Position numbers and translations under genes: made by a program
In this document: piece by piece, positions 35,095 through 40,585 of the stretch
Layout of the letters: every line of letters begins with the position of its first letter
Numbering within the stretch: position 1 is the stretch's first letter
Assembly (NCBI RefSeq): GCF_900291475.1
Contig: NZ_OLMM01000005.1
Span: 38,370 to 102,369 of the forward strand
Direction of reading: 5' to 3'
DNA: 64,000 nucleotides
DNA from: Acidaminococcus hominis
GTDB lineage: Bacteria > Bacillota > Negativicutes > Acidaminococcales > Acidaminococcaceae
Notes under the pieces: model-generated
The model's input: the letters and a program-made list of their open reading frames with translations, nothing else
Told to the model about the DNA's origin: nothing
The model's database searches: none

Positions 35095-35934
35095 CTACGC
35101 CGCCATTTGGTAGCTATTATGTTTTTGCATAGGGGTCAAACGGCCCAAATTCCGCTGCAAACGGCCACTGTTGTAATACTCCATGTAGTTATTAATCATC
35201 GTTACCAAAGCTTTACGGCTGTCGAAGTCACGAGTATAGTACCGTTCTCTTTTCAGCATGCCCCAGAAGCCTTCCATCGGGCCATTATCAATGCATTTTC
35301 CTATCCGTGACATACTCTGCGTCATACCAGCATCTAGAATCATCTTGCGGAAATCCCTGCAGGTGTATTGGAATCCCCGGTCAGAGTGAAACAGGGGATG
35401 CGCGCCAGGGTTTTTCAACAATGCCTTATTGAAGGTATTGAATACCAAATTTTTATCGTTCCGGTTGCTTATCACATAGGAAACAATTCGTCTGTCATAC
35501 AGGTCAATAATCGCGCTCAGATATACCTTATGCACAACTACCCCCTCATAGTAGTGAAATTCTGAGACGTCAGTACACCATTTCTGGTTAGGGGCATCGG
35601 CTTTAAATTCCCTATTCAAGATATTTTCTGCAATGTATGCAGGATCTATTGCACGCTGGGTGCAGCCCTTAGGGGCATATTTAATCGTAGACTTTATATT
35701 TATCACTCGACAAAGATGAAGAACGCGACCGTCACCAATTGCTATTGGTTTCGTGTCAGGATAGATCTTCTTATTTGGGGCTCGTAAGTCATCAGCTATT
35801 CGTCTGTACCCTTTAGCTGGGTCAGCCTTGTATATCTCTTCTATTCTTTTAGCAATTTCCTTGTCGTCAATTTCGCGTGCTGAAGGCTCTCTATGAAGCC
35901 ATTTGTAGTAGCCGGCCCGGGACACTTTTCCCAA
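35095..35934 (-). CDS. IS3-family transposase orfB (DDE integrase)
   Basis: A 279-residue reading from the first ATG; the frame continues upstream (RYGAIYEAIKELHAEKN) to about 36000, indicating expression by -1 frameshift from orfA. Integrase core with D,D,E: Asp in WCTDVSEFHY, Asp in LFHSDRGFQYT and Glu in GPMEGFWGMLKRERY, plus the YNSGRLQRNLGRLTP C-terminus. Catalyses transposition as the OrfAB fusion. Confidence 0.88.
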   Translation of the reverse strand: MGKVSRAGYYKWLHREPSAREIDDKEIAKRIEEIYKADPAKGYRRIADDLRAPNKKIYPDTKPIAIGDGRVLHLCRVINIKSTIKYAPKGCTQRAIDPAYIAENILNREFKADAPNQKWCTDVSEFHYYEGVVVHKVYLSAIIDLYDRRIVSYVISNRNDKNLVFNTFNKALLKNPGAHPLFHSDRGFQYTCRDFRKMILDAGMTQSMSRIGKCIDNGPMEGFWGMLKRERYYTRDFDSRKALVTMINNYMEYYNSGRLQRNLGRLTPMQKHNSYQMAA

Positions 35935-36008
35935 TTTGCACAGGCCAAGAATAGGGTAATTCTTTTCAGCGTGCAGTTCTTTAATGGCTTCATAAATGGC
36001 TCCATATC

Positions 36009-36707
36009 TTATTTGTGTGAATCCCGCCTCCTTTCCACAATATCGAGTTTTTTTAGGAAATCAATCTCCATATCCTTGGCTTTGAGTTTTGCATTAGCCA
36101 GTTTGAGTTCAGCTTTCATACACTCATATTCTGTAGGGGCTTCTTCAGGGACTTCTACTGGCTTCCTGTGTCCGCGCCCATCTATGAGTCCTTCGGTATT
36201 GTACTTATTATATTTTAAGACGTAATTTCTGACTTGCTGGTAGGAAACCTTAAACTTTTCAGCGGTTTCATGGTAAGCATTCCCGTTTTCAATGCAGTAT
36301 TTTACGATTTCAACGCGCTCGTCAAAGGTCGTTTGTCTAGCTTTAGTCATGATCTTGGCACCTCCAGTACCCGAACTTTTTAGTTCCTCATGACTATTAT
36401 ACTTCTTTAACCAGTCTCTGATTTGACGAGAACTTTTTAATCCGTATTTTTGTACCAGCTGGGACATAGTCGTTTCGCCCTTAAGATATTCCTCTACGCA
36501 TTGGATCTTAAGATCAGCAGAATAACTTTTAACCTGTCTTTTGTTAAATACCTCAGGACCATTTCCTATATATTCATCTACCCAATACTGTACTGCTTTC
36601 CAGTGAACCCCTAACCTTTTTGCAGAAACCATTGGTGATTCTTCATGAGCAAGAACAGCTTTGACAGCCTTTAATTTATCCTCTGCACTGACTTTCGATA
36701 TAGACAT
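36009..36707 (-). CDS. IS3-family transposase orfA
   Basis: A 232-residue DNA-binding protein with repeated HTH units (SAKRLGVHWKAVQYWV; MSQLVQKYGLKSSRQIRDWL; TAEKFKVSYQQVRNYV) and a leucine-zipper-like end (ELKLANAKLKAKDMEIDFLKKL). Start MSISKV at 36707 follows AAAGGAGAG. An A-rich slippery stretch CTAAAAAAAC (minus strand, about 36050) and GGAAAGGAGG after it precede the overlap with orfB and would support -1 frameshifting or re-initiation. Confidence 0.82.
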   Translation of the reverse strand: MSISKVSAEDKLKAVKAVLAHEESPMVSAKRLGVHWKAVQYWVDEYIGNGPEVFNKRQVKSYSADLKIQCVEEYLKGETTMSQLVQKYGLKSSRQIRDWLKKYNSHEELKSSGTGGAKIMTKARQTTFDERVEIVKYCIENGNAYHETAEKFKVSYQQVRNYVLKYNKYNTEGLIDGRGHRKPVEVPEEAPTEYECMKAELKLANAKLKAKDMEIDFLKKLDIVERRRDSHK

Positions 36708-36782
36708 TTTACATACTCTCCTTTCAACGAATCCAGGAGGTTTAACTATATGCCAGTCTACTTTATTCATAGCATACCACCT

Positions 36783-36957: not shown

Positions 36958-36996
36958 TTAAAAACGGCTTGCGAACTTAAACAAGTTCGCAAGCCA
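36958..36996 (-). terminator. Terminator of the M20D gene
   Basis: GGCTTGCGAACTT...AAGTTCGCAAGCC hairpin followed by GTTTTT on the minus strand. Confidence 0.85.
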
Positions 36997-37027: not shown

Positions 37028-38206
37028 TCAGCCCAGGTAATCCAGGGCAAATTGGACTTCAATAGCGGTTCCCGCAGGCAGTACGTCCTCGTCCACTTCA
37101 AAGCCAGGATGGTGATGGACGCAGCAGATGCCCTTCTTTTCATTCCGGGCGCCCAAAAACAGAAAGACCCCGGGGACCTTTTCCATCAGCACGGAAAAGT
37201 CTTCCGCCCCCATCTGCCGTTCCATGGGCACTAGGGCCGCTTTTCCCAGCACCTGGGTGACGGCCTGGCGTCCCAGGTCGTTGAGCTCCAGGTGGTCGTT
37301 GCTCAGCGGTGCCGGGCCAAAGAAATAGGTACAGTCTACCTGACAGCCCAGGCCTTCCCCCACTCCCTTGGCCACCTTCTCGATTTGGGCGGGCAGTCCC
37401 TTTCGGAAAGCTTTGTCAAAGGTCCGGGTGGTACCCACCAGTTCCACCTGCCGGGCGGTCCGGCCGGCTTCCCCGGTGCTGTTAAACATCCCCACCGTCA
37501 GCACGAAGGTATTTTCCGGGTCATTTTGCCGGCTGGCCAGCTGCTGCAGGGCCAGAATCACAGCCGCTGCCGCTGCAATAGGATCCCTGCCCTGCTCCGG
37601 GGCAGCCAGGGGCGCTTCCTTCCCGGTCAGGCGAATGGTAAACCGGTCGCTGCAGGCCATCCGGGGACCGTCTTCCAAGTTCACGGTGCCAGCCTCCAAC
37701 AGGGCCCAGATATGCATGCCAAATATGGCGTCCACCCCCTCCAGGCAGCCTTTTTCCACGTAGTGCCGGGATTCGGTGCCAATTTCCTCAGCCATTTGAA
37801 AAAGGAATTTAACGGTACCGGAAAAATCTTCCCGGTGCTGGCTGAGGATTTTGGCGGCCCCCAGCAGCATGGCCATATGGCAGTCGTGGCCGCAGGCATG
37901 CATGACCCCGGGATTCTGGGACGCGTAGAATTTACCAGCAGGGTCCTCCGCAATGGGCAGGGCATCAATGTCCGCGCGGAGCATCAGGGTCTTTCCCGGG
38001 CCTTTCAGGCCAGTCAGGGTACCAATGCAGCCAGTAATATCCGGAAAGGTTTCCACGGCAATTCCCATTTGCTCCAGTTCTTGTGCCAAATAGTTCGTCG
38101 TATTCCGTTCTTCCCTCCCCAGTTCCGGGTGGGCATGAAGATAATGGCGCTGGTCCAGGATATAATCCTTTTCGGCCAGCGCCAGTTCCTTAACATTCCT
38201 TAGCAT
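37028..38206 (-). CDS. M20D family amidohydrolase, altered lid domain
   Basis: A 392-residue zinc-dependent amidohydrolase (N-acyl-amino-acid or aminobenzoyl-glutamate hydrolase type). The catalytic domain is complete: HACGHDCH (103-110), AEE (139-141), IFGMHIW (His165), GAEDF and HHHPGF near the end. In the lid/dimerisation domain the usual G-G-H-A-A-x-P-H is GKEAPLAAPEQ (195-205), so both histidines, one of which normally completes the partner subunit's active site, are missing. Start MLRNVK (38206) has AAGGAGG nine bases upstream and overlaps the stop of the preceding lid-only ORF. It follows an AbgT transporter gene. Confidence 0.85.
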   Translation of the reverse strand: MLRNVKELALAEKDYILDQRHYLHAHPELGREERNTTNYLAQELEQMGIAVETFPDITGCIGTLTGLKGPGKTLMLRADIDALPIAEDPAGKFYASQNPGVMHACGHDCHMAMLLGAAKILSQHREDFSGTVKFLFQMAEEIGTESRHYVEKGCLEGVDAIFGMHIWALLEAGTVNLEDGPRMACSDRFTIRLTGKEAPLAAPEQGRDPIAAAAAVILALQQLASRQNDPENTFVLTVGMFNSTGEAGRTARQVELVGTTRTFDKAFRKGLPAQIEKVAKGVGEGLGCQVDCTYFFGPAPLSNDHLELNDLGRQAVTQVLGKAALVPMERQMGAEDFSVLMEKVPGVFLFLGARNEKKGICCVHHHPGFEVDEDVLPAGTAIEVQFALDYLG

Positions 38207-38583
38207 CAGCATATGCCTCCTTGGCTGGAAAACCGCACCTCTGACTTACAGGCAAAAGTTTCTGCGGTCAGTTCCGCCATCCGTTTTAGTTTTTCTGCCA
38301 TCTCTGCCAAAAGTTCCTCGTCGTAGCCCAAAAGGGTGCCCTGCAGCTGAACCTGGTCACAGATGATATTGAATTGCTTGCCCGCCTTGACGTTTTCCAA
38401 GGCCAAGACCAGGGGCCGCAGGGGATTGTTCACCCGGCTGACCAGGGTTTGGAGGGCCTGGATAATGGCCGCAGCAGCCACAATGGCGTCTTTGCCCAAA
38501 TGGGGCGTGGAACCATGGGCCGCCGCCCCATGGACCAGAATCGTAAAATCAAGTTTGTTTTCCTTTTCGCTCACAAGTGCCAT
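38206..38583 (-). CDS. Free-standing M20 lid/dimerisation domain
   Basis: A 125-residue protein matching only the lid domain of M20D amidohydrolases: LVHGAAAHGSTPHLGKDAIV with intact His23 and His28, then ALQTLVSRVNNPLRPLVLALENV and QFNIICDQVQLQGTLLGYDEE. No catalytic domain precedes or follows in frame. It has its own ribosome site (AAAGGGG, ATG 38583) and its TGA overlaps the M20D start. Either it is a decayed abgA-like gene or a domain supplied in trans to the neighbouring enzyme, which lacks just these histidines. Confidence 0.75.
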   Translation of the reverse strand: MALVSEKENKLDFTILVHGAAAHGSTPHLGKDAIVAAAAIIQALQTLVSRVNNPLRPLVLALENVKAGKQFNIICDQVQLQGTLLGYDEELLAEMAEKLKRMAELTAETFACKSEVRFSSQGGIC

Positions 38584-38633: not shown

Positions 38634-38668
38634 AGAAAGCGGCTGCGCCAGCCGGCAGCCGCTTTCGT
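38634..38668 (-). terminator. Hairpin after abgT
   Basis: AAAGCGGCTGC...GCAGCCGCTTT stem immediately after the abgT stop, followed by TTCTTCTCC. It may only partly terminate, letting some transcription into the M20 genes. Confidence 0.7.
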
Positions 38669-38670
38669 TT

Positions 38671-40218
38671 TTAGTGAAGATAAATGCCGCCGCCAGGTCC
38701 CAAGGGCAGGTTCAGTACTACCCAGATGGCCAGGAGTATCAGCCAGGCCACGGAAAAGCACAGGGAATAGGGCAGCATATTGGCAATGATGGTCCCCATG
38801 CCGGTGTTCTTCTCGTACCGCCGGGCAAAGCCCAGAATCAGCGGGAAGTAATAGAACAGCGGGGACAGGGGGTTGGTCAGAGAGTCACCAATCCGGTAGG
38901 CCACCTGGGTCAAGGCCGGATCGTAACCCATGAGCATCATCATGGGCACCATTACCGGTGCCAGGATGGCCCATTTGGCAGACGCGGAACCGATGAAGAT
39001 GTTGATGATGCAGGAAACCAGCACCAGGCCGAAAATCAGGGGCAGCCCAGTAAAGTGCATGGCCTGCAAGCCGCCGGCGCCTTTAATGGCCAGCACCACA
39101 CCCAGGTTGGACCAGGCGAAATAGCTGGTGAACTGGGAGCAGAAGAAGCACAGCAGAATGTAGGAGGAAATATCCTTGAAGGCCAGGGAAATATCCGCAA
39201 ACATATCCTTGTCGTTCTGGTATTTGCCGGAAGCAAAGCCGTAGACGGCCCCGGGCACAAACAGCACCACGGTCACCATCAGGATAATGCCGGTCATAAA
39301 GGGAGACGTGGCGCTCATGATGGAATGGGTCTTGGGATCTCCCAAAATGGGGTCCGCCCCTACGCACAACAGGGCGATGACCACCAGGGTGGCCAGGGTA
39401 GCCCACAGGGCTTTGGTGACGGCCTTTTTGTTCCGGTCCGTCATATTAGTCAGGGATTCATCCAGTTCATACTGGCTGAGATCCGCCCCGGCAAACCGGG
39501 GAGCCATAATCTTTTCCGTTACGAAGGTTCCCACCGCCGTCAAAAGGAAGCAGGAAACCACCAGGAAGTAGTAGTTGATGGCGGGAGACTGCTGGTAGTT
39601 GGGGTCAATGAGCTTGGCCGCCGCTTCCGTAAAGCCGTAGGCCAGGGAGTCGGACATGCCCAGCATAATGTTGGCGCAGAAGCCTGCGGCCACGCTGGCA
39701 AAACCACAGAACACCCCTAGCAGTGGATGCCGGCCCATGCTGAGGAAAATCACCCCAGCCACCGGAGGCAGGACCACAAAGGCCGCATCCCCGGCTACGT
39801 TGCCGTTGATGCCGATAAAGATGATGACAGCGGTGACCAGGGCGGGAGATGCGGATTTCAACATCTTCTGCATAAAGGCCGCCAGAAAGCCGCTTTTTTC
39901 AGCTACCCCGGCGCCGATAACGCACACTAGCACCATGCCCAAAGGAGCGAAACTGGAGAAGTTGGTGACAGCCTTGCTCCACATCTGCCGGAAGCCCTCC
40001 ACGGAAAGCAGGTTCACTACTTTGATGACCTTGCCCGTACCGGGGTGCACTGCGGAGACGCCCATACTGCCCAAAAGGGCGGAACAGGCCACCACAATCA
40101 GGGCCAGCAGAATAAACAGACTGGCCGGATCCGGCAGTTTGTTGCCGGCCACTTCCACCATGTTCAGAAAGCGGTCCATCAGACTTTTTTTCTGGGTGGT
40201 TGGATTTTCTGTTGTCAT
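38671..40218 (-). CDS. abgT: AbgT-family transporter
   Basis: A 515-residue membrane protein of the AbgT family (p-aminobenzoyl-glutamate importers; some members export antibiotics such as sulfonamides). Family blocks are visible: VAGNKLPDPASLFILLA near the N-terminus, NGNVAGDAAFVVLPP, and the C-terminal IGSASAKWAILAPVMVPM and YRIGDSLTNPLSPLFYYFP. Start 40218 follows AAGGAG. Downstream M20 genes support import of an N-acylated or peptidic glutamate followed by hydrolysis, useful to a glutamate fermenter. Confidence 0.92.
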   Translation of the reverse strand: MTTENPTTQKKSLMDRFLNMVEVAGNKLPDPASLFILLALIVVACSALLGSMGVSAVHPGTGKVIKVVNLLSVEGFRQMWSKAVTNFSSFAPLGMVLVCVIGAGVAEKSGFLAAFMQKMLKSASPALVTAVIIFIGINGNVAGDAAFVVLPPVAGVIFLSMGRHPLLGVFCGFASVAAGFCANIMLGMSDSLAYGFTEAAAKLIDPNYQQSPAINYYFLVVSCFLLTAVGTFVTEKIMAPRFAGADLSQYELDESLTNMTDRNKKAVTKALWATLATLVVIALLCVGADPILGDPKTHSIMSATSPFMTGIILMVTVVLFVPGAVYGFASGKYQNDKDMFADISLAFKDISSYILLCFFCSQFTSYFAWSNLGVVLAIKGAGGLQAMHFTGLPLIFGLVLVSCIINIFIGSASAKWAILAPVMVPMMMLMGYDPALTQVAYRIGDSLTNPLSPLFYYFPLILGFARRYEKNTGMGTIIANMLPYSLCFSVAWLILLAIWVVLNLPLGPGGGIYLH

Positions 40219-40585
40219 AGCTATCACTCCTTTTTGTCAGCGCTTCCCAATAAATACAACATTTTCTGCTCCATGAGGGAAGATAGTTCGTTTTTATTAT
40301 AAAAGATATAAAAAAACATGTCTAGAAAATCCATGTAAAATCTTCTTTACACAGGCTTTTTCGCTGATTTTCAGGCTAAAAATGGAATAAATGAAACAGT
40401 GCAGGCAAATAATGGAAAAGCAGAAAAGTTTGGGATAATACCAAACGATTATTTTTTATTAGTATTATGCGTTCGTTATGTTTTTCAAGCCTCCTTCTGC
40501 AATTCCTTTGGGTTTCTAATTTCTGCGTTTTTTTAACTAAGTTTATTTTTATTTTTCCTCAAATTTCGTTAAGTTAACGTAAAAA
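40219..40585. other. AT-rich intergenic region
   Basis: About 370 nt upstream of abgT. It is AT-rich with TATAAAAGATATA-like stretches (about 40295-40310) that could provide -10 elements. No gene or RNA is evident. Confidence 0.5.

Follow-up and report, generated by a model that had tools for sequence, protein, structure and literature searches.

A lid-only protein and an M20D enzyme without two lid residues: a probable two-gene M20 hydrolase behind AbgT in Acidaminococcus hominis

Introduction

The p-aminobenzoyl-glutamate hydrolase of E. coli, AbgA-AbgB, is an alpha2-beta2 heteromer of two full-length M20 subunits, and its authors once considered that one subunit might serve for interaction only and the other for catalysis (PMC5082436). 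In related dimeric enzymes, residues of the lid (dimerization) domain are shared between chains. In DapE, chain B contributes His194 and Asn244/245, and chain A contributes Arg258 (PMC5919655; PMC10815964); DapE without its dimerization domain is inactive (PMC4012986). Likewise, His229 and Asn275 of one carboxypeptidase G2 (CPG2) monomer meet Arg288 of the other (PMC6271292). PepV and other monomeric M20 peptidases have one catalytic domain and two lid units, with Arg supplied by one unit and His and Asn by the other (PMC10699109, PMC6271292).

Here we describe a pair of M20-related genes of Acidaminococcus hominis that resembles each of these systems in part. The term window refers to the whole stretch of DNA that was analyzed (64,000 nucleotides). 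As in E. coli, two non-identical M20 genes lie beside abgT, which is directly upstream of the window pair. Unlike the window pair, however, both AbgA and AbgB are full length and both keep the lid His, Asn and Arg, whereas one window subunit consists of a lid only; the two pairs are not orthologous. With one catalytic domain and two lid units, the proposed pair would be a two-chain analogue of PepV, but PepV carries its doubled lid in one chain, while the second lid here is a separate gene product, apparently left from a paralogous subunit. The enzyme's fold and zinc ligands, and the lid fold of the small protein, are those of the homodimeric M20Ds (YxeP, IAA-amino acid hydrolase and 4ewt). 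Ordinary M20Ds are presumed to be self-complementing homodimers, whereas half of the lid residues are missing from each of the present chains. Our search of the open-access literature turned up no M20 lid that stands alone as a subunit, which is not proof of absence.

Results

Organization of the locus

The features of the locus are as follows.

40296..40324, minus strand: sigma-70-like promoter TAGACA-17-TATAAT upstream of abgT (11/12 consensus matches; a consensus match only)
38671..40227, minus strand: abgT-family transporter, 518 aa, first gene of the operon (PF03806, E 1.4e-174)
38635..38666, no strand assigned: 12-bp G+C-rich hairpin in the gap between abgT and the lid gene (from sequence)
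38206..38583, minus strand: lid-only subunit, 125 aa, an isolated M20 dimerization/lid domain (PF07687, E 6.5e-12)
38216..38222, minus strand: Shine-Dalgarno sequence AAGGAGG of the M20D enzyme, within the final codons of the lid gene (from sequence; also in relatives)
37028..38206, minus strand: M20D catalytic subunit, 392 aa (TIGR01891, E 3.3e-97; PF01546, E 5.5e-38)
36966..36995, no strand assigned: bidirectional terminator-like hairpin of 13 pairs, 3' of the enzyme gene (found on the plus strand; a T run is present on the minus strand too)

The genes abgT, lid and M20D probably form one operon on the minus strand, in that order. The stop codon of the lid gene overlaps the enzyme start in the sequence TGATG, as it does in relatives. 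The open reading frame as listed begins at 38212, but we place the enzyme start at the ATG at 38206, because its 9-nt spacing from AAGGAGG is better and because this choice gives the same TGATG overlap as in the relatives. From the overlap and the internal Shine-Dalgarno sequence we infer that the lid gene and the enzyme are translationally coupled. The preliminary description had recognized a 125-residue lid-only protein with an intact AHGSTPH motif, coupled by stop/start overlap to an M20D gene downstream, and the PF07687 match and the TGATG overlap bear this out. The lid and enzyme genes lie in different frames at every locus that we examined, and there is no PepV-like doubled lid in a single polypeptide.

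Hairpins similar to that in the abgT/lid gap are present in loci L039, L042, L043 and L044 and absent from L191 and L045; the hairpin may determine how much transporter is made relative to hydrolase. Just 3' of the operon terminator is an IS3-family transposase of two ORFs (35095-36770, minus strand), which leaves the operon intact.

The two proteins

The lid-only protein matches the profile PF07687 (M20_dimer) with 45.8 bits, well above the gathering score of 21. The M20 peptidase catalytic domain with its zinc site is absent (125 aa, with no PF01546 match). The protein carries the motifs AHGSTPH, containing His23 (codon 38515-38517), and FNII, containing Asn72 (codon 38368-38370), and has Leu at the column where Arg would stand. 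Its AlphaFold2 (AF2) model (pLDDT 89.2, pTM 0.82) has a complete lid fold, and its best PDB matches, at Z 14-16.5, are lids taken from M20 enzymes.

The enzyme scores 325.9 bits against TIGR01891 (amidohydrolase; cut-off 153.75), and its zinc ligands are intact (C105, H107, E140, E141, H165 and H365). The tip of its lid reads GKEAPLAAPEQ, with Pro199 in place of the lid His. The Asn (FNII) loop is also gone, being replaced by GEAGRTAR, a point that had been missed earlier, and the GTTRTF motif with Arg261 is kept. The enzyme's own lid is folded in its AF2 model (pLDDT 94.7, pTM 0.91), which matches the homodimeric M20D structures YxeP (1ysj), IAA-amino acid hydrolase (1xmb) and 4ewt with Z 45.8-48.8, the highest value being that for 4ewt (Z 48.8). 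YxeP and IAA-amino acid hydrolase are its nearest solved relatives, while Klebsiella AbgA is a much weaker match. The preliminary description had used the name abgA for a full-length gene at this position, but we rule out calling the pair AbgA/AbgB, since the enzyme resembles YxeP and IAA-amino acid hydrolase more than AbgA and the E. coli subunits are both full length.

Partition of the lid residues between the chains

The chain 3ic1 of HiDapE maps His194, Asn245 and Arg258 onto the three lid columns considered here, where the placement of the Asn and Arg columns was counted along the aligned DapE lid. Lid/enzyme pairs from 12 species were compared at these columns with 120 ordinary full-length M20Ds from the fetched loci. 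The lid-only proteins keep His and Asn in every case (12/12 for both) and have lost Arg in 10 of 12, with L, Q, Y or V at the column; Arg is still present in those of loci L039 and L041. The partner enzymes are the reverse. His is lost from all 12 (replaced by P, L, N or D) and Asn from 11, while Arg and the six zinc-site residues (CHEEHH) are kept in all 12. The enzyme of L045/L102 has Asn at the aligned column, but the FNII context is gone. Among the controls, His, Asn, Arg and the zinc residues are retained without exception (120/120 for each). The patterns used to fetch 69 of these controls included the His or Asn motif, but retention is equally complete in the other 51. Thus, the reported absence of the lid His from the M20D enzyme, which has Pro199 at that column, extends to all 12 split enzymes and to none of the 120 controls.

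Given this reciprocal loss in 12 pairs, against controls that are all intact, we read the alignments as a partition that follows the direction of action, with the trans-acting residues on the lid protein and the cis-acting residue on the enzyme. The erosion of the enzyme lid is correspondingly local. We compared the AbgT-type split enzymes with their full-length relatives of the B type (see below), expressing the identity of split enzymes to full-length B proteins relative to the level among full-length B proteins. The relative identity is 0.52 for the His loop and 0.49 for the Asn loop, versus 0.91 for the dimer helix, 1.00 for the dimer strand, 0.92 around Arg and 0.96-0.97 for the catalytic domain; the assignment of helix and strand to the lid-lid interface follows the description of a related enzyme (PMC10952681). 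Erosion is thus confined to the His and Asn loops: the enzyme has kept its dimer face and released only the two loops that would act on a partner's active site.

Conservation and selection

The preliminary description had suggested looking for conservation of the pair in relatives, and both the pair and its gene order recur in 12 species (four Acidaminococcus, six of the Phascolarctobacterium type, one other Acidaminococcaceae MAG and one from another Negativicutes family). Within the family, stand-alone lids are found in 11 of 59 genomes, namely 4/9 of the window's genus, 6/6 of the Phascolarctobacterium-type genus, and the MAG G019. One more, in G758, comes from another Negativicutes family (380 Negativicutes searched), and no other besides the window's own was present among the matches listed at E <= 1e-20 from 398 Bacillota genomes. 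A 205-aa open frame, G371:C280, came from the same 398-genome Bacillota search. The lid gene is directly 5' of the M20D gene in all 12 cases and follows abgT in 11; in G019 an unrelated transporter takes its place. Chance does not explain an arrangement that is found in 12 species when every one of the 120 ordinary M20Ds keeps the lid His.

Within genera, the dN/dS values of the lid gene (0.07-0.26) are slightly higher than those of the enzyme gene (0.06-0.15), and indicate that the lid gene is maintained as a protein under purifying selection. Conservation and dN/dS together rule out a pseudogene or a frameshift as the source of the lid ORF.

Origin of the split

At the same position behind AbgT, relatives have two full-length M20Ds, A followed by B (L046, L047, L048, L053, L055, L061, L063 and others), which form separate clades in trees built without the lid columns. 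The lid-only proteins are closest to the lids of A (50-53% identity), and the split enzymes are B proteins (61-66% identity to full-length B). Because full-length tandem A/B pairs occupy the same place in relatives, we interpret the lid-only protein as a reduced A subunit. It had been proposed that a full-length gene at this position would mark the ORF as a decay product; such a gene is indeed there (full-length A in L046, L047 and L048), but conservation across 12 species shows that the lid ORF is not decaying.

The G019 enzyme falls in a different clade, together with tandem genes of Fusobacteriaceae (support 100/99). A tree in which all splits are constrained to a single clade is worse by 136 log units and is rejected (p-AU 8.75e-34). 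A single clade of the AbgT-type splits is not rejected (p-AU 0.11 and 0.10), and the tests among these splits, with p-AU 0.10-0.25, allow one or several origins. The trees thus point to at least two origins of the split, the second of which rests on one MAG that is 63% complete. In L193, a transporter resembling that of G019 (likeness judged by eye) is followed by two full-length M20Ds, which is the arrangement that would be expected of a precursor of the G019 split. The transporters of G019 and G729 have no Pfam or NCBIfam match (Pfam was run on G019 only).

Similar-looking membrane proteins lie directly 5' of M20D genes at L045:4790-6049 and L193:2995-4320; neither has an NCBIfam match, and that of L045 has no Pfam match either. 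These are possibly an unnamed family of acyl amino acid transporters. The full-length A proteins of two other Acidaminococcus species (L047:6924-8120 and L064:4455-5621) share a long stem of 0.69 changes per column, as though selection on the catalytic domain of A had already relaxed or changed. Tandem M20D pairs of the A-B kind, of two distinct clades, occur widely across Clostridia and Negativicutes; they are probably heteromers, although we found no characterized member. In Clostridia bacterium UC5.1-2E3 (L107:4413-6780) such a pair is broken into several ORFs, by pseudogene formation or sequencing errors.

Discussion

Proposed mechanism

We consider it very probable that the two proteins work together as an obligate heterodimer with only one active site, although the complex, its 1:1 stoichiometry, the dependence of catalysis on the lid protein and the substrate are all inferred. 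In this complex, the lid-only subunit would pair lid-to-lid with the enzyme's own lid, in the way that the identical lids of ordinary M20 dimers do, and would reach over the zinc center of the enzyme, placing His23 at the oxyanion hole and Asn72 at the substrate carboxylate. From the enzyme itself would come the zinc ligands, the catalytic Glu and, acting in cis, the lid Arg261. Such a 1:1 heterodimer would have a mass of approximately 56 kDa. That the small protein supplies the lid His in trans within a heteromer was the central proposal of the preliminary description. It now has strong comparative support, from conservation, selection, reciprocal loss, the retained dimer face and at least two origins, but neither the complex nor its activity has been shown.

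The ancestor would have had two full-length M20D subunits, A and B, encoded in tandem behind a transporter. Deletion of the A catalytic domain would leave the trans-acting His and Asn of B with no active site to serve, and these would decay; the His and Asn of A would stay essential, while its cis-acting Arg would decay. The more inclusive reading is of a two-gene M20 hydrolase that has a bare-lid subunit and cleanly sorted trans and cis lid residues, that arose in parallel, on two or more occasions, from full-length tandems behind two unrelated transporters, and that works as an obligate one-site heterodimer. We regard this as probable.

The substrate is probably an N-acyl or N-aroyl amino acid imported by AbgT, which is likewise an inference. 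Acidaminococcus has a glutamate-fermenting habit. A glutamate racemase gene lies directly 3' of the pair in A. fermentans (L041:6436-7230), and an asparaginase gene 3' of the pair in Phascolarctobacterium-type genomes (L042:3647-4648). Together, these neighbors and glutamate fermentation suggest, if only weakly, that an acidic amino acid is freed from an acyl or aroyl conjugate.

Alternative explanations

The complex might form without any need for a lid His, if the chemistry of the enzyme had changed and the lid protein served structure or stability only, for example as a binding protein or a chaperone for AbgT cargo. The free replacement of the enzyme His (P, L, D or N) would fit such a change, but all 12 enzymes conserve the zinc ligands, the pair of catalytic Glu residues and Arg, and the strictly kept His and Asn of the lid protein point to a catalytic role; we think this explanation quite unlikely. 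Truncated paralogues are often dominant negatives, and a free lid could pair with any of the approximately 24 M20 proteins in the genome, so the lid protein could also be a regulatory or inhibitory decoy that blocks homodimerization of its own partner or of other M20 proteins and has no part in catalysis. A decoy requires the dimer face rather than the tip His and Asn, yet it is the His and Asn that are invariant; moreover, the translationally coupled enzyme is without exactly those residues, and the pairing is fixed to this enzyme only, which together make a decoy very improbable. Least tenable is that the lid ORF is a pseudogene, left over from a full-length A gene in decay, and that the enzyme needs no partner and functions as a homodimer lacking the lid His: a full-length A gene does occupy this position in relatives and the enzyme does have a complete lid fold of its own, but in 12 species the domain boundaries are the same and clean, with nothing left of the catalytic halves, the lid gene has the low dN/dS values given above, its catalytic-type residues are invariant, none of the 120 other M20Ds is without the lid His, and loss of the cis Arg with retention of the trans His and Asn would be unexpected for a decaying ORF.

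Significance

The obligate heterodimer proposed here would realize the division of labor that was once proposed for E. coli AbgA/AbgB. If the lid protein (14 kDa) switches the zinc hydrolase on, the pair would amount to a split enzyme that is ready for use. There is also a warning for annotation, in that the small lid gene resembles a fragment and the enzyme resembles a dead or a lone hydrolase. In evolutionary terms, the pair is a clear case of complementary degeneration after duplication, for which the intermediates, full-length tandem pairs, persist in close relatives. Finally, it is a natural experiment on the sharing of residues across an enzyme dimer, with the trans His and Asn and the cis Arg split onto two genes, and this separation of His/Asn from Arg is an independent confirmation of the inter-subunit mechanism of the M20 family, to which DapE, ArgE, carboxypeptidase G2, aminoacylase and carnosinase belong.
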